Assembly: GCA_905250025.1 (NCBI GenBank)
Contig: CAJNOJ010000155.1
Span: forward strand, 9,912 to 73,911
From: Adineta ricciae
Lineage: Eukaryota; Rotifera; Eurotatoria; Adinetida; Adinetidae
DNA: 64,000 bases
Direction of reading: 5' to 3'
The notes under the pieces were generated by a model. That model saw only the letters and a program-made list of their open reading frames with translations. It had not been told where the DNA came from and made no database searches. Numbering within the stretch: position 1 is the stretch's first letter; each line of letters begins with the position of its first letter. This document shows, piece after piece, positions 178 to 44,305 of this stretch. Made by a program: the position numbers and the translations under genes.

Positions 178-3100
178 ATGTCGTCGTCGAACTGTGCTCT
201 ATTTGTGATTGTCATCATGAACTTCTCATCGACAGTTCTATTCATCTGTTTGATATTTCTCAAATGGCAAGTTCGTGGTCAAGATGATTCAGGACAACAT
301 TCGTCTTTAACCGTTGAAACTCAATACCTTCGTTTCGATATGAGTCAATATGGGCAAGATGGTGGCGTTTTTTCCAGTAAGTATCTTTCTTCTCCATTCA
401 TAATTTTGTTTTTCATTCGCCGGTTCGCTCGTTTTTCAAGGTCCTAATTTTCCAAACTATTATCCACAAAATACAATCTTGTTTTATCAATTCATTGCTT
501 CATCGGATTATCGTGTTGTGATTGAAATCGATTTCTTTCAAGTTCGCGGTGTGACTCCTCAGTGTACACATGATTATCTCGATGTTTACATCAATGTAAC
601 TAATTTTGACGTTGTACATAATCCAGTTAATGATCAACTACTCCATCGTTACTGTGGCCGAAATAAACCACCTTTGCTTGTCTCATTTACGAATTTACTT
701 CTTTTGGGATTTTTTACTGAAGATACGCAAACTGAGAGGGGCTTTAATGGTTCATTTCGATTTATTCCTGCACAACCTTATCGAAAAAATTTAAAACGTG
801 AACCATGTGATTATGTATTCGATTCATCAGTATCAAAACGTGGAGAATTATTTTCTTCAACATATCCAGGAACTTATCTACCAGTAAGAGAATCGATTTT
901 CGAACAAAAAATCAGTTTTTTTTCGTTTATTTTTAGGGACAATTCTGTAATTATTCATTCGTTGGTCAACCTGGTGAACGTATTCATATTCGCTTTCGTG
1001 ATTTAATTCTCTTCAAAACTCCAAACACTCACCATTGTGCTGTCGATCTAATAAAACTCTATGACAATACCTTAGATCCACCCGAACTTCGTCGATTTCT
1101 TTCAAGTTTTCAATCAGCAAGTCATTCTGAACAACAATATCTCTCTGATCAACACGATCATCATCATATAACTGATCTTTGTGGAACATATGTCCTCCCA
1201 CTTGATGTTTACTCCACGGGTAATTTATTGTTACTCTATTTCATTGCTACACATTATGCCGAGCTGACAGATGAAGAACAAGCACAGATGGCTGAGCATT
1301 CGGGACCAGTTTGGCGGAAAGGTTTCTTTGCTGAGTACGAATTTTCTTCTTCATTGACGAAACTCGATTTTATCAGCAAAAATAAATCGAATCAATATGT
1401 TTCTGGAACTGAATGTGATCAGACCATTAAATCATTTGGACAAGGACATGGTAATCATCAAAGACAATTGATTTCCGACGTTGATTACATTCCCTGTACT
1501 ATCTTTTTTTTAGGAAAATTTCAATCACCTAATTGGCCACACCCTTACAAGCCTCAAACATCGTGCACGACTTATCTATTGGGACTTGATGATCGTTACA
1601 CATTAGAAAATGTGGAAATTGAGTTCGATCAATTTGATATTGATTGTAATTTAGCTTCGCTGGTCATTTATAATGCCAGTCGGATTTACGATTATCGTTT
1701 ACGATCACGTCCGAGTAGCCCATTGTTATCAACTTCGAAATCGTCATTATTTAGTAACTATTATCGACAGGAATTAGATTTTAAAGGAAATCTGTCATTT
1801 TGTGGACATTTTAAGCCCGAAGGACGTTTTGTTTCGAAAAATGCTCTATTAAAACTGTCATTTATCCCAACCGATCGTTCCGGAACGAATGTTTACTCCT
1901 CATTAAATAGCGGAGGTAAATTTCAAGCACGATACAAATTTGTTAAAAGTTACCATCAAGTCTCCGCCGACGAATATGATGGTACCAATCCAAATACTTG
2001 TAATCTTTCTTACTATCAATCTCGCGCACTATTCGGTAACATCATTTCACTCACGTTCTTCCTTATTTCATCCTGTACCTTTTCTTTCCTTTTAGGAAAA
2101 TTCGAACCGCCTCGCTCATCGGAAAACGACTATTTTGCCAATTCAAATTGTACATTTAATTTCTATCCAATGAATGAAAATTCTCGTTTGTTAATCTGGT
2201 ACGATTATTTCAATATTGTCGATGATGATCTGATTCAATGTCCTTCGGATAATTTAACGTACACATACAGTCTTTATTCATCATCAATATTCTATGTTCA
2301 TCCGTTTCGATACTGTGGATATCGAAATTTTCCATCACCATTTTTAAGCGTTCGTTCAACGGAATTATTTCGTATACATTTTCGATCGAATGATGATGCC
2401 GACGCAGGATTAGGATTCGAAGGACGTTATCAATTTGTCAATCAGTCAAATTCATTGTTCTCACCAGCCATATGTCGAACTCCATTTGATTCGATTGTTT
2501 ATGTAAATGAAACCAATGAACCATCAGGAAACATTTCCAGCGATGGCTATCCCGAAAATGTGATCTGCGAATGGTCTTATGTAACATCGCGCGGCTTTCA
2601 ATTTCTGTTAGAACTCAATCTACTGCAAATCGAAGGCTCGAAAACAAAAGATCCACCTCAAGGTTGTCAAACAGCTGTACTGAGAATTTACAGCGAAGGA
2701 CGAATCGATGAATTATGTGGACAACAGGAGGAAATCTATTATTTTACCACCGAATCAAATTGGTTTACTATTCAATTTATTTCCCTGAATCGACAAACGA
2801 AAGAACTTCTTCGTGGTTTTCATATCTATTGGACTGTTATTGAGACAAGAACGAAATCCGTTGATCAACGATGTTCTCTCTCCGATGAGTATTTTTATTG
2901 TAAAAAAACTGCAAATCATTCGATAGGAAATTTTTGTATTCACCGTTCGCTTTTATGCGATGGTCATTCACATTGTCAGCCGATTTCCAATGACGATGAA
3001 CATCCCTCGAATTGTTATATGATGATTCCATCACGTGTCAAACAACCGTTAGCATTGCCATCATCGACCCTATCATTCTTTCACCAACATCTTCTGTTAA

Positions 3101-3345
3101 TTGTCATTATCTTCGTACTTTGTTTAACAATGTTATGTATTGTTTTCATACTAATTTGTTTATTAATCAAAATGAAACGAAGACAACAAGATCGACAATC
3201 GTCGAAACGACGGCGAACAAATCAACGCGATGATTTACTCCTACGCAAAAAGTCGTTGCAAACGTATTCGGATGAAGAAGAAGAAGACGAAGATGATGGT
3301 GAACATCATATAAATAGGATGGAACAAGCTGTGACTACAGTTTAG
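178..3345 (+). CDS. Five-CUB, one-LDLa transmembrane receptor-associated protein (LEV-10/NETO-like)
   Basis: Spliced from five exons; introns at about 377-440, 884-936, 1451-1513 and 2036-2095 each have GT..AG ends. The protein has an N-terminal hydrophobic signal segment, then five CUB-like units. They are recognised by SPNFPNYYP-type starts, paired cysteines and FCGHF, RYCGY or LCGQQ motifs. An LDL-receptor class A module follows (RCSLSDEYFYC to CDGHSHCQPISNDDE), then one transmembrane helix near 3088-3165 and an Arg/Lys- and acid-rich cytoplasmic tail. Five CUBs plus one LDLa plus one helix is the architecture of nematode LEV-10; NETO proteins have two CUBs. In those families such proteins cluster or tune neurotransmitter receptors at synapses. 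That role is inferred from architecture only. The start is the first ATG in frame with the signal segment; an ATG 39 bases downstream would also work. Confidence 0.85.
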
Positions 3346-16267: not shown

Positions 16268-17803
16268 TTATGCCGATTGTCCAGCAGCGAATCTTAAACG
16301 TTTGTTTTTCTGTCGCTGATTGCAAAACCAAACCCGAACGACGTTTTTCTTCAGATCAAGTTTATCGGCGATTTGAGCGATACGTTCACCGCTCGGTCTT
16401 TGTTGTTGGATAAAACATGATTCAAGAAACCGTTTCTCTTGTGCTGCAATCGATGTACGCTTTCTTTTCTTATCAATTAAACTTCCTGTTGAACTTCCGT
16501 GTCCACTTGAACCACCAATCGATCCGTTTAATTCATCCTTCTTTCTTTGTCTCATTTCTGCTTCAGCGAATTCTAACCATGCTTGAAGAACTGGTTTCAA
16601 GGCAACCATATTGTTATGTGATAATGTAAGTGATTCAAATCGACAGATTGTTGATTGAGAAAGTGAACCTACGCCCGGCATTTTCAATTTAGATAATTGT
16701 TGTCCAACATCAGCTTGTGTGACACCTAATTTGATTCGTCGTTGTTTGAAACGTTCGGCAAATGTTTCCAGTTCGCGAGGATCAACATCGAGTTCATGAG
16801 CAGGCATAAGACCCGTGACAACACCATGATGATGCATGCCAACAACCATACCGGGCAAAACTCCAGCAGCAGCTGCTGCATGGTGATGTGCGACAGCCGC
16901 ATATTGATGTTGATAAAATGGATGTAAATCCGAAGATATGTGCGGATGATGATTGTGATGAAGATGATGATTATGTGAATTTTGGTCAGAAAGTAGATGA
17001 TTTTCCATATTTGAAGCGCCTGGATAAGCCACAGTAGAAGATGAGGATGAAGACGATGATGAAACAGTCGCCGGGCCTGATGAACAAGCGAACGGCGAAG
17101 GATAATAAAGTGCCGAGCTGGATTCGGGTTTTGTAAGAGCTTCAGCTTGACGAAGAAAATTATCATCAATAGTTGGACAGAATAAACTCTAGAACGAGTC
17201 AATTAAAGAGTTCGTCATAGTATTTATTAAACTTACATTGGGTTCAAATTTGAAATTATCACCAAAACAATTGGATTTTGACCACTAGAATAAATCAAAA
17301 TCTTTGATTTCCGATCGAACAAGAAAAGAAAGCTTAATTATGAAAATCTGATTGGCTCATTCGTCTATGTTAGTTTTCTTAATCCTTTCAATGTTCATTC
17401 AGAAGAAAAGAAATCTGTTCATCTCGTTTCCGATTACAAAAGAATGACAAAATATAGATAATCAACACCTTGATGCACCCTAGACACGTACAGACGAAAG
17501 ATGAGAACAAATCTAATTTTTACTTTTTCCCGTCTTTGCACTTACCGGTGTGCTTGGCATATATCGTCGATTATTATTCGATTCACTTGATGCTACTGCA
17601 ACAGCAGCAGCGCGATAGAAATTACTTGGTGAATATCGTCCCATGTTGACACTTGATACGTTCGAATTGGTAACTGTACTTGTCGTTGCTTGAGACGAGG
17701 GAAATGCTGAAGATGAGTTTAAAAATGCTAATTTATTTGCCGGCATGATAGGCGAGGATGATAACGGCGATGATTGGTCAATCGGTGATATACTTGTCAG
17801 CAT
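16268..17803 (-). CDS. POU4: Class IV POU homeodomain transcription factor (Brn-3/POU4)
   Basis: Three exons are visible. The last covers a His/Ala-rich region, the POU-specific domain (DPRELETFAERFKQRRIKLG, TQADVGQQLSKLKMPGVGSL, SQSTICRFESLTLSHNNMVA), a linker and the homeodomain (KKRKRTSIAAQEKRFLE, KLDLKKNVVRVWFCNQRQKN). SLFCPTIDDNFLRQAEALTK near 17180 corresponds to the N-terminal POU-IV box of Brn-3 proteins, which settles the class. A small exon, SKSNCFGDNFKFEPN, lies between introns. The 5' exon starts MLTSISPIDQSS at 17803. An alternative upstream exon (about 17833-17960) could splice over a 42-nt intron into the same frame, giving a longer N-terminus (NDKLNR joined to SISPIDQ). POU4 factors specify sensory neurons. 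The protein should act in the nucleus as an octamer-type DNA binder. Confidence 0.93.
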
Positions 17804-28785: not shown

Positions 28786-30533
<1,748 letters not shown>

Positions 30534-36842: not shown

Positions 36843-38938
36843 GATTGTGTTTTATTGAATTTACACAGAATACAAAAGAAATAGGATCCTGCTGATTCAA
36901 ATTTTTTCGTACAATGCGTAATGAGCTGTTTTCAAGGAGAGAAAACGAATCGTTTGAAGCTATTCTGAAAAAAAATGAGAAGAAATGAAAGCAATTATAT
37001 GCGTTTGTCGTTTGAAACCGTATAAAACGATTTGTGAAATCATTCTTGTCATTGCAGAGTTGATTTATGAAGTATGTATTGATGTGAAAAGAAGCAAGAG
37101 AAATCAGGTTACTTTTCTCGTAGAATGAATAAGTAATTGCCGAACAGAGACAGAGGAAAAACAAGAAGAAAAGAACAATAGTGAAAAGCATATTCAGATA
37201 GTTAGATTGGGGGAAATTGAGAGAAAGCTCGCTTTTTTTTAATACTTACAAATTCAGTTTTGAGTTCATGCAAAAGAGGAAACAAAGCAATTACTCTTTT
37301 GACTATAGGAGACATTTAAGTAGAGGCACGTCCATCAAATTGACATATCTATCTTGAGAAGTACTATGATGTTGTTATTCTTCTTGATTATATCCACAAG
37401 GAAAATGTTTCTCTGCTGAATGTACGGGTGTGCCAGAACAAATGACAAGTTTATTTCTATCTATTCCTAAAAAAGACGGCTATGACTTAACAAGACACAA
37501 CGAGATAGAAAGCGAAGCACAAATGACAATCGATTGAACGTCAACTAGAAATATTTTTACTCTCTGTGCGTCTACTTTTTCTTTGACTGAACGCAAAGAC
37601 ATAGGAAAAGAGGAAACTAATGCGATAATAAAGAAAAACGAGTAGTTACCCGTTGCCATGTGCCTTAATCGTAGTCGACAGATGCCCACATATATATACA
37701 TAACATGAGAGAAAAAGATAGAAGATGTATGTAATCAATCGTGTAATAATCCATAATGATTATACGTCGCAGAAAGGAAAAGAAGAAACTTGCGCAGCAA
37801 ACATTATCTTCTATCTTAATCAGAATCAAAACCGCTACAAAAGAAATTTGTCAGCACTACACTTTGACAATCTTGTCTTTTGACTTCGTCATCTACAAGG
37901 CTGACGAACTAGAATGCGAATAGAGGAAGGATAACTATCGATATTTTTCCTCTTTTCTGTTAATATGGGATAAACCTGATAGGAACGTGCGCTACGCGTA
38001 GTATACGATGATGATTTAGTTACAAAGTTGTAATTATGTCTTCGGAAGTCCTATTCGTTGAGTTCTGTGATATTTCATATAAATAACTAATGATCTCATA
38101 AATTTTCTATGTTTTCATTTGCATTTTTAACGTTATCCAAGAGTAAAACATGTCTGAACAAAGAATTTCGGAATTACAGATGATTGACAGCAACGTCACA
38201 AGTTAAAATATGATCCAAAACATCTGTGGAAAAGCTAAACAACAAGCATTGCAAGTAACTCTTGGAGAGTCAATTCATTTTCATGTTCGCCTTTCTCATT
38301 GCCGGTCAATTTCACACATAATTTCGATTCATGTGCTAATCTACTGACGATATTTCTATACTATTCGTCGTTTTGATTTCTGTGATGGCTTTGACAATGT
38401 GAATCTTTGCTTTACAACTTAATTTTGGTAAAATCTGTCAGCACAAATATGTGGAAGATTAGATCGATCGTTGATAAGGATTGTATGAAAAGAACAACAA
38501 CGTCTTTTCAAGTGCATTCGAGTTTGAAAGGAAGCACTAACTTCAGTTGGAAGATTTTTTTATTGGTAGCATTTTTTCAACAAAGTAAACCTCTCTCTTC
38601 ACCTCTATCGCCGTTTATTACTAATAACACAATTCTGTGTTACTCATTTCTTCAAACCAACTCGAGTCGAATATACTCACTAAATCAACAACAAAAGAGA
38701 GAGAGAGAGACAAATGCCTAATTTTGAAGTTTTTTCCAACGTAGATCACCAAACACTTCCTACACCGATACTATATAGATGTAATTTGTAACTATAATAT
38801 AAAGTATAAACTTTGCAGCAAATCTCGATTGTGATTCAACGTATTTATTTCATAAACTAGAGCGAATCGTTTTTCTTCCATCTTTTCTCATTCTATCAAA
38901 AAACGGACTAGGCAGCAAACATTTCATCTTATTCTGCC
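36843..38938. other. Intergenic, no gene recognised
   Basis: About 2.1 kb between the CHP-like gene (minus) and the prenyl-synthase gene (plus), so it must hold two divergent promoters. A short GA repeat lies at about 38696-38711. Several short frames have low-complexity composition. I see no RNA gene or transposon. Confidence 0.5.
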
Positions 38939-41900
38939 ATGCACGCGGAATGTAAGTTGCACTCATTTCTTCATTTTTTAATCTCTTTTTTGCTTGTCAT
39001 AGGTAAATTTGTACCGAAAACTGAATCTGCTAATCATCGCTGTTGTTTCTTCTCACGATTTGATCATAATGTTCATCCTGTGATTGACACACGACAATTT
39101 CAATTTGAAGAATCCGAAAGTCAACAACGACGTCAAGTCGAAGCGTTTATTTTTTCTAAATTAGAAGAATATTCTCGTGAGAAATCGACAACATTCTTTC
39201 ATCTGACTTCATTTTCTCATATACGTCGTCGTTTGAAACGTGATTTGAAATCGTTTCTTAAACGAATCCATCCGTACTTGGTTCCTGAAGAAAAACTCAT
39301 TCAATGGCTCGATGAAACATTGCAAAGAATCACTTCTCATCTACCACATTTACATTCTTTATTCAATTCTTCAAATGATTTGCAAAAACTATTTGCACAG
39401 GAGAATTCCTTTTCATCGGCAACTATCAACACTCAATGGCAACAATTGCAGCTCAAACGAGCAAAGGAAATACTTCCAAATACATCTGAAGATCTCTTAG
39501 ACGAATATCGGAAACATGTTGTTGAGAAACTTACACCAAAGAAACTGGAAAACAATCGATTATCATTGAAAAGCAAAGATCCAATCGATTTAGATGTTAA
39601 ATTTAATGAAGCGGAACTAGTCGGAAGGGAGTATTTAACAAAAATCTTTGATGACTATCAAAAACGTCAATATCCGAATGTGAATTTGCTGAGAGAAATG
39701 ATTCAGCTTGGAATGAATCAGATGGTCAAACGACCGAAAACAGACGAATTTCGAAATGCTTTGTCGTCATCGAATGTTCTTGTTAAAGCAATGTTTATCA
39801 TCAAAAGCAAAAACGCTTATACAATGAGTTTGAAAAATATCGCCGACGATTTTATGGTAAAAGCTCTTCGAATTTTACAAACTTTTCTAAGTTTTATTTA
39901 GTTTCTTCGTTTCGGTCGTTCACTTGACTATGATATGAATGAAAAAGATTCGATTACTTCAAGATTTGCCTCGTTAATACACATGTTTTTGAATACCATC
40001 TCAACTCTGCTTCATTCAGTTCAATCGGAAACATCTCTCACGACATTTTCTCAATTTGATTCGAATTTATCTTCAGAAGAGATCCTCTCACCACTTGTGT
40101 ATATTGATCAATGGACATGGTTGATCCAGAAATGGAAAATCGCTTTGCAAACATTTCCAGTTCATTTGACGAAATCTGGCGCGTTCGGTCGACTTATCCG
40201 AACGACGATCGGAGTTGGAATAGCTCGACTGTATGGATTCGCGGAAAACAATGATCACGAAGATTTAGATAGTAAGTTTTTTCAAGCATTACAAATGGGA
40301 TTTTATTACGGAGTTGCTTATGCACTTGTTGATGGATTGCAAGACAGTGATAATAACGAAGAACAACAACATTCAATCGATGTTGATCACTGGTTAAGTG
40401 AAATGGAGCGAATCCTATGCGGACATGAATTGGATCCATCATCATTGCCTCAACTACCGATGACATCGCTTTTGCTTGAAACTTTTCATAGTCTTGTCCA
40501 ATTAACATCAGTGAATTCAATTGCTGAAGAGACATTTGTCGATCTCGCGTTGCTTCTCCGTTCACAAAGAGCGGATAAGAAAGATTCGAAACGGATTTAT
40601 CAAAACAACATTGAGCTTTATCTTGGATCATTGATGAAATCACATTTTACCTATACTGCAACGGCTTTCATGGGTGGCGCACGAATGGTTGAGGGTCATG
40701 AACGTCTATGGACAATGCCATTCCTCGGACAATTAACAGACGATTGTCGTGATTTTAATGAAGACCGTCGAGATAATTCGGTCACACCCGTTACGTACTA
40801 TGCTCAACATAAAGAGTCCAATGTGTTGAATCCATTTTTTGTCTTTCTGTTCGTTTGCGAAGATTTGTATCTGCAAAGTCAGCGAGATGCGAATACAGGA
40901 GCATTTCTGGGACGTCGAATCATTCGAACACTACGATCGTTGCAAAAAGATTTCAACGAATTTTTACTTATTTTCGTTTCTCCAACCTATCCAGAGTTAT
41001 TCAAATATACTCTTTCATTAGAGAAACTCTTCGATCGCGTTAGTGATCCAGAAAAGTCTGTCTTTCGTCGCATGAACCAATTCGGTATTGATTATTCTTT
41101 TAACCATCGAAAAGTTGAAACCTTCGCTTTTGATCATTTACCTCTAATCGAAAAACAATTAACAAGAATGCCTAACAACAACGATCCAATCGTTCTTGGA
41201 ATGAACCATAGCCTCAAAGCCGGTGGAAAGCGTCTTCGTCCATTACTTCTTCTCATGGTTACTCAACTGTATCATATCGACATCAAACGTGTTTTACCTT
41301 TGGCAATCGCCATTGAGTATCTTCATACAAGTAGTTTAATCTTTGACGATCTTCCTGCACAGGACAATGCACCATTACGACGAGGACAACCGACGCTTCA
41401 CATGCCAATCGAAAGTGATCAGAACAACATTCCATCATCGTTAACAGAAGGACGAGCTCAATTAGTCGCAGTTGATCTAATTGCTCAGGCGATCCGACTG
41501 GTAACTGTAGATTTACATCGTGAAGGTTTTCCATATGAAAGTATCAATCAAGTAACAGCAGAACTATCACAATCAATGGATGAACTTTGTCACGGACAAT
41601 TTCTTGATCTGCAAGCAGCGAGAGTGAAGAGAACAACATTGACGATTGACGAACTTGATCATATCGCTCAGTTGAAAACTGGAAAAGCAATTGAGGTTGT
41701 TCTCGTTTGTCCTGTGATTCTTGCACAAATCGATCAAAATTCGCTAAAGAGAACCATCGACCGTCTTCGGGAACTTGGCCGGTTGATGGGAATTCTATTT
41801 CAAATGAAAGATGATCTGTTAGATGTTGAAGGAAATGTAGGCGAACTTGGAAAATTAACAAATATTGATCAACATAATGAAACGATGACTTACGTGAGTT

Positions 41901-42034
41901 TATTGGGAATTGAAAACACTCGACAACGTTTAAAAAGCAAACGAAAAGAAGCAGAAAAGATTCTCAATGAACTATGGCCTCAAGCAGGAACTATTCGAGA
42001 TGTTATCCGACATATTTGTGAACGAAAAAACTAA
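38939..42034 (+). CDS. Two-module polyprenyl (trans-isoprenyl) diphosphate synthase
   Basis: Two small introns (38952-39002, 51 nt; 39857-39901, 45 nt) give a 999-residue protein, about three times a normal FPP synthase. The C-terminal module (from about residue 700) is a bacterial-type FPP/GGPP synthase. It has GMNHSLKAGGKRLRPLLLLM, the first Asp-rich motif FDDLPAQDNAPLRRGQPTLH (about residue 771), LKTGKAIEVV, and the second Asp-rich motif FQMKDDLLDVEGN (about residue 926). The N-terminal module also has synthase traits: YYGVAYALVDGLQD (about 432) and GQLTDDCRDFNEDRRDNSVT followed by PVTYY (about 569). Its first Asp-rich motif is incomplete. Such enzymes condense isopentenyl diphosphate with allylic diphosphates. 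Few introns and a bacterial-like module suggest horizontal origin; that is inference. The 51-nt first intron is stop-free, and if retained it encodes a hydrophobic segment. Confidence 0.88.
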
Positions 42035-42783: not shown

Positions 42784-43740
42784 TTAACATTTGGGTAGAT
42801 TCCGTAGCGAACAGGCGGAGAATTCCGGACCGGTTGGTAATAATTGCGATACTTTCAATGAAAGTTCTTTATATACTTGACGAATGGTGCTCTCTGCAGT
42901 TCCGGTTGCTAGTCCTAAGTCTTTTATTGGTTTTTGTTCACCAATAATAGCACATGCCATGTAAATGACTGCGCCTACAACTGATTCTGGTGCTCGACTT
43001 TGTATATCACAAATTTCTTTCGCTCGTTCGCTAATGTGTGTTGAAACTTTGACAATGAGTCTATGATTTTTCAGTTCAAGTCGACCACAGAAACGAGAGA
43101 TGAGATTTTTGACATCCACCGCTTCATGCAGAATAAAATTCGGTAGTTCTTGTTTTATCTTACTAAAACATCTACCAATCTTCACTTTCGATACACCCGG
43201 CGCAATGCCACATATTTCTTTAATTGTACGCGGCATACCTCCTTGCCGACAAGATATATAAATACACGTGGCAGCAATTGCTTCTTTTTCATAGCCACGC
43301 GCACATTTTGCATCATGACATTTCTTGTAGAGTAAACACGCTTGTTTTACTATTCGGTTTTCTAACGAGATTCGATTGGCCATTTGTCGAATGATGTTAT
43401 AACCGTCTTGTAAAGCTCTGTCTCCTGATGATGTCTGGACCGATGTAGTTTTATATTTCTGCTGGCCGAATTCGTCGACTGCTGGTTTACCTTTCCCTTT
43501 GGCAATCATCGTATCGAATGTATTGTTGTCAAATAAGAAATTATCTGGACCACCGACGCGACACATGTCTTTCGCATCGGTGTCATTGGCAAATGTTCGC
43601 CATTCGGAGCTAACATCGATCGTTCGATCGCCCACTACTAACCCACACTCAGAACAGATCGTATCACCTGCACGCCAATCTTCGATTAACGTCGATTCGG
43701 GATGAAAACGACATGAGAGGGTTTGCATGTTCCGTGTCAT
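42784..43740 (-). CDS. GTF2B: General transcription factor IIB
   Basis: A single uninterrupted frame of 318 codons, close to the 316 of human TFIIB. The N-terminal zinc ribbon has CRFHPEST and CSECGLVVGDR ligands (C-x2-H, C-x2-C). The B-reader and linker VSSEWRTFANDTDAKDMCRV follow. The first cyclin repeat includes DGYNIIRQMANRISLENRIV and YEKEAIAATCIYISCRQGG, then RTIKEICGIAPGVSKVKIGR. The second includes ISERAKEICDIQSRAPESVV and AAIYMAC-type sequence (GAVIYMACAIIGEQKPIKDL), then TGTAESTIRQVYKEL. TFIIB bridges TBP-DNA and RNA polymerase II at the promoter. It has no introns, in contrast to nearly every neighbour. All functional motifs look intact, so it is unlikely to be a dead retrocopy. 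Confidence 0.97.
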   Translation of the reverse strand: MTRNMQTLSCRFHPESTLIEDWRAGDTICSECGLVVGDRTIDVSSEWRTFANDTDAKDMCRVGGPDNFLFDNNTFDTMIAKGKGKPAVDEFGQQKYKTTSVQTSSGDRALQDGYNIIRQMANRISLENRIVKQACLLYKKCHDAKCARGYEKEAIAATCIYISCRQGGMPRTIKEICGIAPGVSKVKIGRCFSKIKQELPNFILHEAVDVKNLISRFCGRLELKNHRLIVKVSTHISERAKEICDIQSRAPESVVGAVIYMACAIIGEQKPIKDLGLATGTAESTIRQVYKELSLKVSQLLPTGPEFSACSLRNLPKC

Positions 43741-44305
43741 TCTTTCTTATGTCTAGTAAAAACATTTCTTTACATGAGTAAAAAGGGCAGCAGTATACCT
43801 CAGTCATTACACTTTCCACTTCGTCTTTCATTCCTGTCGATGCGATATTTGTCAGGACAAACGCACGTCTCGCTTGTACGTCATGGGTTTTTTCCTATGA
43901 CGCCATGTTACCATTCAGTGGGATATTTACAAGGAAATATTAATGCTTTTAATATTTTGTGAAATGAGTTTTGTTTTCGTTGATCAAATTGTTACAACAA
44001 GAGGACACATGTCAAACAAATCAGATTTCTATTCCATGCGTGTTTTCTCCAATATTCGAAATCTAATCGACATCTCCTCAGAATCAAGATTTGCTTCGTA
44101 TATTATAAAAGAATATTTCGGCAAAATTTACCGTGATGACTCACATTTCCTTCCAATGAAGTGTGCGTCATTCATGAGTCTTATTGCACAACATGCTGAT
44201 TGTAATTTCGTAATCGCTCGCTTCACAGTGTTTTTCCTATAAAAAAGGAGATGAAATGTGTTCAGACAAAGCAGTGAAAAAGGTTTTGAGTTTGACAGTT
44301 TGAGC
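43741..44305. promoter_or_regulatory. Upstream region of TFIIB and U2 snRNA
   Basis: This interval separates TFIIB (minus) from the U2 gene (plus) and must include the U2 promoter, which in animals is a proximal sequence element about 50-60 bases upstream. I cannot recognise a rotifer element by eye. A 99-codon frame at 43943-44242 ends just before U2 and looks spurious. Confidence 0.35.

Follow-up and report, generated by a model that had tools for sequence, protein, structure and literature searches.

A two-module gene of bacterial affinity in the rotifer Adineta ricciae joins an uncharacterised module with class-I-like landmarks to a type II GGPP-synthase-like module

The window analysed here, a stretch of 64 kb, is part of contig C155 of the Adineta ricciae genome (130.5 Mb in 1033 contigs). 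Spliced translation of the gene located at 38939-42034 on its forward strand predicted a product of 999 residues and two tiny introns, through which two stop-to-stop frames (38912-39901 and 39902-42034) are connected. Each predicted intron is the sole GT-AG pair, of at least 30 bp, that keeps the frame open in the stretches scanned (Table 1). An earlier note on this DNA had described a two-module unit of this length with two tiny introns and several named motifs, and both the splice scan and the translation gave the same picture. VDGLQD and LTDDCRD occupy residues 432-437 and 567-573 of module 1, and DDLPAQD, LKTG and FQMKDDLLD are found at residues 771-777, 880-883 and 922-930 of module 2. 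Other reading frames of the window encode a CUB protein (937-3342), a POU plus homeodomain protein (16271-17188) and, about 750 bases downstream of the two-module gene, a TFIIB in one long frame on the reverse strand (42787-43746). Two adjoining frames with TPR repeats were also observed on the forward strand at 28964-30530, the second of which matches, below its cut-off, the nephrocystin-3 TPR model as well.

Table 1. Features of the two-module gene, with positions counted from the first letter of the window.
Feature	Position	Strand	Evidence
Exon 1, start codon, 13 nt	38939..38951	+	sole open splice in the scanned stretch
Intron 1, 51 bp, phase 1, GT-AG, predicted	38952..39002	+	splice scan
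Exon 2	39003..39856	+	reading frames and splice scan
Intron 2, 45 bp, phase 0, GT-AG, predicted	39857..39901	+	splice scan
Exon 3, 710 codons open up to the stop	39902..42034	+	reading-frame list
N-terminal extension, residues 1-200, in both rotifer copies (30% identical)	38939..39589	+	alignments
Module 1, residues 362-690, uncharacterised, class-I-like landmarks	40118..41104	+	homology to bacterial proteins
Module 1 motif 1, D433-G-L-Q-D437	40331..40345	+	alignment columns
Module 1 motif 2, QLTDDCRDFNED (Q566 to D577)	40730..40765	+	alignment columns
Module 2, residues 691-999, type II GGPP-synthase-like trans-prenyl diphosphate synthase	41105..42031	+	profiles, motifs
Module 2 first Asp-rich motif DDLPAQD, two-residue insertion, Ser at -4/-5	41345..41365	+	alignment
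Module 2 second Asp-rich motif QMKDDLLD	41801..41824	+	alignment

Module 2 was identified as a trans-prenyl diphosphate synthase, as had been proposed from its motifs. Pfam family PF00348 covers residues 723-968 with an E-value of 6.4e-40 (137.4 bits against a cut-off of 27), the best NCBIfam families are FPPsyn (E 9.5e-52) and CrtE, and the top PDB chain is 3uca (E 7.7e-35). The NCBIfam scores lie under the curated cut-offs of both families (144.1 against 460 for CrtE, 175.9 against 275 for FPPsyn). Trans-prenyl synthases carry as hallmarks the FARM and the SARM, a GKRxRP motif, an RR pair after the FARM, a KT pair, a Q before the SARM and a GK after it. This whole set is present in module 2 of the window gene and of a second rotifer copy described below, both of which show GKRLRP, H764, DDLPAQD, R782-R783, K881-T882, Q923, the SARM DDLLD and K940. 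The catalytic positions are kept as well in the 43 bacterial rows of our alignment, R733 being Arg in 41 of them, and the Arg pair after the FARM is found in 45 of 45 module 2 rows. The catalytic residues of module 2 are thus intact. Bacterial type II CrtE and IspA enzymes (PF00348) share this catalytic set and the sequence family; however, they are single modules of about 300 aa, and the rotifer module 2 stays below the NCBIfam cut-offs of both. Concerning the product, type II GGPP synthases are defined in PMC7261888, in the part of it available to us, by a two-residue insertion in the FARM and no aromatic residue at positions -4 or -5. The insertion in DDLPAQD, together with S766 and S767, agrees with the rule in that form and points to a type II GGPP synthase, whose product is likely about C20 (GGPP) or longer.

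One further gene of the same build was found in the rotifer genome, on contig C53, where a thioredoxin gene in two exon pieces adjoins it. Its protein shares 55.7% of residues with that of the window in module 2 and 51.7% in module 1, and residues 1-361 are about 30% identical. Two introns, of 50 and 249 bp, were mapped in the C53 copy at positions different from that of window intron 2, which is itself missing at the corresponding place. No mappable internal intron is therefore common to both copies, in a comparison that covers window intron 2 and the two mapped C53 introns, and this fits the later gain of introns that the earlier note had suggested. The dN between the copies was 0.46 in module 1 and 0.42 in module 2, with a dS that was not computable and was taken as saturated, while the N-terminal part gave a dN of 0.75 and a dS of 1.34. 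These values indicate that the duplication is old and that both modules are under constraint. A second copy of the TFIIB gene was also seen, 54-57% identical to that of the window; as it lies on contig C8 and not on C53, the TFIIB pair is no sign of a common duplicated block. In addition, the rotifer has a separate FPPS on C72, whose top PDB matches are named as farnesyl or isoprenyl diphosphate synthases. Four other loci (C7, C440, C8 and C77) are GGPPS-like, C7 reaching 6e-49 against GGPPS chains such as 2q80, and a weaker one on C22 was taken for a long-chain synthase. Since the host has FPPS- and GGPPS-like genes of its own, the two-module enzyme is an extra one.

A search with the module 2 profile in 119 genomes from the phylum of a Clostridia record placed three of the five best matches within open frames of 798-841 codons. 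The genes at loci L098, L099 and L100 encode proteins of 806, 794 and 794 aa, and the 999-aa rotifer protein matched them by tblastn in one piece, from residue 362 to 997 or 998, with 28-29% identity (E 6e-49 to 1.5e-47, at all six of the six loci carrying these three genes). As this score is mostly due to module 2, module 1 was tested by itself. In blastp, module 1 alone gave E-values between 6e-12 and 2e-4 over six host-bacterium pairs. An HMM built on the first modules of the three bacterial proteins recognised the two host copies (8.7e-15 and 9.8e-10, against 0.24 for the top-scoring of 1,000 shuffles), and hhalign gave 97.5% between host and bacterial modules 1. Homology to the bacterial first modules and recurrence in the second rotifer gene indicate that module 1 is a real conserved unit.

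The distribution of these bacterial genes was then considered. In the Bacillota order to which genome G813 belongs, probably the Paenibacillales, 89 of 198 genomes match the module 1 profile, mostly within open frames of about 760-870 codons. Forty-three distinct bacterial genes were read fully (42 belonging to the 89 matching genomes, the other to G1110), and all 43 bear both modules in the same order as the host gene. Outside the rotifer, this joined arrangement was seen, among the genomes searched, in one group of bacteria and no other. Among 398 genomes drawn across the phylum, 10 match the profile at E ≤1e-3; seven of these matches are strong (E <1e-200), six of them being also among the 89 of the order. 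A weak match in G1338, a Bacillota genome of 3.2 Mb (E 7.7e-8; L147 3-1193, reverse strand, a 397-aa frame), runs off the contig at its C-terminal end, where any second module would lie, and two marginal ones (1.6e-4 and 7.1e-4), whose frames have 241 and 234 codons, show neither Asp-rich motif. No partner gene was common to the neighbourhoods of L098, L099, L100 and L148 when their reading-frame lists were compared by eye, and a search of viral contigs with module 2 gave nothing.

The bacterial proteins of about 800 aa (L098, L099, L100, L101-L123 and L127-L146) have the same modules, order and conserved positions as the host protein, but differ from it in several respects. They are encoded by single uninterrupted frames and lack the N-terminal extension of about 200 aa, their alignments starting near residue 162-200 of the 999-aa protein. 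In addition, their module 1 carries an intact DDxxD that is altered in the host, and at position -5 of the FARM all 43 bacterial rows have Ala where the host copies have Ser, with Ser at -4 in both. The alignment of the host N-terminal parts, searched against genome contigs, gave 110 pattern matches and no relatives; nothing was obtained with it in 195, 395 and 199 genomes of three phyla, nor with the window N-terminal part in plasmids. A profile of the same N-terminal region finds the three bacterial modules 1 at 35-47 bits with filters off, so these blanks are informative, for those samples and for the tool's first look only.

The module 2 tree was built from 98 sequences under LG+C20, with supports given as ultrafast bootstrap / SH-aLRT. 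Its rows included 14 bacterial two-module sequences chosen from the 43, together with 72 single-module ones, a non-random set that had scored best in three phyla; the C22 locus was not included. The pair of host sequences forms a group (100/98) whose sister is the set of 14 bacterial two-module rows (100/99, with 0.97 on the inner branch), in a tree whose bootstrap had not quite settled, where the host FPPS, L016 and others form long branches that may be falsely joined and where an unlike letter make-up was flagged for some rows, that of the window included. Together, the host pair and the two-module bacteria sit among the single-module bacterial enzymes, with the FPPS and two GGPPS of the host placed outside this grouping. 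The bacterial affinity proposed in the earlier note is supported by this position. The branch of the host pair is long, and the pair arises beside the bacterial fused set, as its sister, rather than from within it; no close donor appeared among the bacterial genomes sampled. We infer a transfer from bacterium to animal from the breadth of the bacterial set, the grouping of module 2 with bacterial enzymes and the intron differences, in spite of the lack of nesting. Because the bacterial proteins are already fused and in the same order, the fusion is probably older than the transfer. Of the suggestion that a bacterial gene was acquired or a fusion formed, the bacterial affinity is supported, whereas a fusion in the animal is not needed, and the idea that it was necessarily made there was discarded.

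Other origins of the gene were weighed against this one. A bacterial piece joined to animal DNA by contamination or assembly error has in its favour only the bacterial affinity of the protein. It was rejected, its probability being practically nil, since the gene has two predicted introns and a GC3 of 0.296 that is within the range of three other window reading frames (0.258-0.334), animal genes flank it on both sides and the second copy lies on another contig beside the intron-split thioredoxin gene. Vertical inheritance of an ancient eukaryotic fused gene that other lineages lost, or a gene passing from animal to bacteria, would agree with the sister position of the host pair and with the age of the gene in the lineage, the silent distance between the copies being not computable, as if saturated. 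However, module 2 lies among bacterial IspA/CrtE-type enzymes and apart from the FPPS and GGPPS of the host, the bacterial family is broad and the introns differ between the host copies, so that we regard both routes as very unlikely.

With respect to module 1, no match of note was obtained in Pfam, NCBIfam or PDB; a PHROGs search was blank. The profile search of PDB yielded no credible match, its top being a viral protein at 1.3e-3, judged to be chance, followed by a heptaprenyl synthase at 0.29. No class I enzyme showed significant similarity to module 1. Across the alignment, with its 43 bacterial rows and the two host copies, D433, D437, K535, Q566, L567, D569, D570, D573 and D577 are invariant; S536 and R557 are conserved in 42 of the 43 bacterial rows, and positions 386 and 389 hold K in the bacterial rows but R in those of the host. 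The layout QxxDDxxD is the same in modules 1 and 2, and in both a K-S or K-T pair precedes it. Motif 1 reads DDxxD in 43 of 43 bacterial rows, DGxxD in the window gene and DCxxD in the C53 copy, so only its second Asp is lost. According to the part of PMC6214179 available, metal is bound by the two outermost Asp residues of the FARM, and typically not by the second. If module 1 is prenyl-synthase-like, the host copies would thus retain the metal ligands, and the module may be catalytic despite this loss. No Arg pair follows motif 1 within 20 residues in any of the 45 rows, and a normal IPP site in module 1 is for this reason unlikely. The NSE motif of terpene synthases, of the (N/H)DxxSxxxE type, is also absent from module 1, which has DDxxDxxxD there instead. 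Trans-prenyl synthases and class I terpene synthases are reported to be without mutual sequence similarity (PMC8307374 and PMC7484799, in the parts available), so the blank in sequence searches does not refute a class I fold, which we infer for module 1.

The earlier note had described module 1, like module 2, as trans-isoprenyl diphosphate synthase-like. That module 1 is such a synthase was not supported, as no sequence comparison shows it and the Arg pair present in 45 of 45 modules 2 is found in none of the 45 modules 1. The related idea of a second, degenerate synthase that arose by internal duplication draws on the QxxDDxxD of both modules with its K-S or K-T pair upstream. It also draws on PF00348, which was reached below threshold by 8 of 24 module 1 members (best E 7.9e-4) and showed no match in the host copies. 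In addition, an HMM of 72 bacterial prenyl synthases scored at least 3.5 bits in 16 of these 24 members and in 8 of 4,800 shuffles (top shuffle, 7.8), the 24 being close relatives whose scores are not independent. No single comparison was significant, however: that HMM gave -1.2 to 5.9 bits (-1.2 for the window row) with every E-value at least 1.6, and hhalign gave 0.1% between modules 1 and 2, with few sequences. The module 1 profile scored 26.8 against the 72 synthases and 31.3 after the window row and L124 were added; reversed alignments gave 16-17, and 40 column shuffles, run on the first of these two comparisons alone, reached at most 26.5. Moreover, in the matching stretch of 24-25 columns motif 1 of module 1 is aligned to the second motif of the synthases, a pairing at odds with a simple correspondence between the two motifs. 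Considering also the missing Arg pair, a degenerate synthase is quite improbable. The idea that module 1 is a non-catalytic, regulatory partner of module 2 within one chain and sets chain length, like the small subunits of heterodimers, has a precedent in the heterodimeric hexaprenyl and heptaprenyl synthases, where such a length-setting subunit is known (PMC7839719, in the part available). It would agree with the absence of the Arg pair from all 45 rows and with the replacement of the second Asp of motif 1, by Gly and Cys, in both host copies. A regulatory or specialised role had been suggested in the earlier note from the altered VDGLQD motif; the alteration is real, but its regulatory meaning is weakened because all 45 rows retain the two outer Asp residues of the motif. 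A pure scaffold, furthermore, would need none of the expected metal Asp residues, the Lys and the Gln before motif 2 that are invariant in these 45 rows. The DDxxD is intact in 43 of 43 bacteria. We deem a regulatory half rather unlikely.

We consider it rather probable that an ancestor of the animal acquired long ago an already fused bacterial enzyme in which module 2 makes a diphosphate of about C20 and module 1 processes this product. This two-step enzyme was ranked highest on account of the invariant Asp set of module 1, the extra character of the gene and the parallel with fungal chimeras discussed below. The donor would have been a bacterium with a fused enzyme of the type now spread across one Bacillota order, and its arrival would have been followed by intron gain, duplication and the acquisition of the N-terminal extension. 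Module 2 would condense IPP onto allylic diphosphates, stopping at about C20 (GGPP) or longer. Module 1 would hold a metal and diphosphate site of class I type and act on the product of module 2 within the same protein, most likely by ionising the C20 or so diphosphate to give a terpene or a terpene alcohol. In this reading module 1 would be catalytic, and the product may be an unusual terpene. A bolder and decidedly tentative reading is that module 1 founds a new class I terpene synthase family, a bifunctional prenyl-synthase/terpene-cyclase born in Bacillota, retained across an order and passed whole to an animal whose two diverged copies make a terpene. The product would then be a diterpene or longer compound built from C5 units within one protein, and the family would be unrelated by sequence to the fungal chimeras.

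In those fungal chimeric terpene synthases (PTTS), an N-terminal class I synthase and a C-terminal prenyl synthase share one chain (PMC8307374). This is the order of the rotifer gene, if module 1 is of class I, as seen for example in fusicoccadiene synthase. Module 1 had no sequence match to the PTTS chains, although PTTS entries are present in the PDB set, so any likeness would be convergence and not membership; the prenyl synthase part of PTTS is matched instead by the eukaryotic GGPPS of the host. The combination of terpene synthase and prenyl synthase in one chain was called unique to fungi in 2021 (PMC8307374, in the part available), a claim that would fail if module 1 is a cyclase, in which case an animal would have gained a de novo terpene route from bacteria. 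Trombidid mites have laterally acquired terpene synthases with at most 30% identity to microbial homologues (PMC6275457). These are, like the rotifer gene, animal terpenoid genes of bacterial or fungal affinity and set a precedent for the transfer route; unlike it, they are not mentioned as fused to a prenyl synthase in the part of that source available. Literature on the host gene or on the bacterial fusion was not found among the titles listed. A term search in the main text of three papers on bdelloid transfers gave no mention of prenyl synthase, and a table in the part of one of them that deals with horizontally acquired sequences lists the pathway 'ubiquinone and other terpenoid-quinone biosynthesis'. 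The gene described here connects a bacterial two-module enzyme, uncharacterised and widely conserved, with an animal in which both modules have stayed under constraint since an old duplication, and the motif columns common to the 45 sequences make the question of module 1 directly testable.

Finally, three bacterial frames that came up in the searches were rejected as relatives. A 701-aa frame of Deltaproteobacteria (L021 3971-6076) has the prenyl synthase first and is a different fusion, whose second part was recognised by eye as squalene/phytoene synthase-like. Two long acidobacterial frames were found to be single-module genes inside long GC-rich frames. At L014 4986-5711, an acidobacterial single-module enzyme with EYLHTSSLILDDLPAMDD falls near the two-module set (93/88, on a branch flagged as long), and a gene of this type is possibly the kind that gave rise to module 2.
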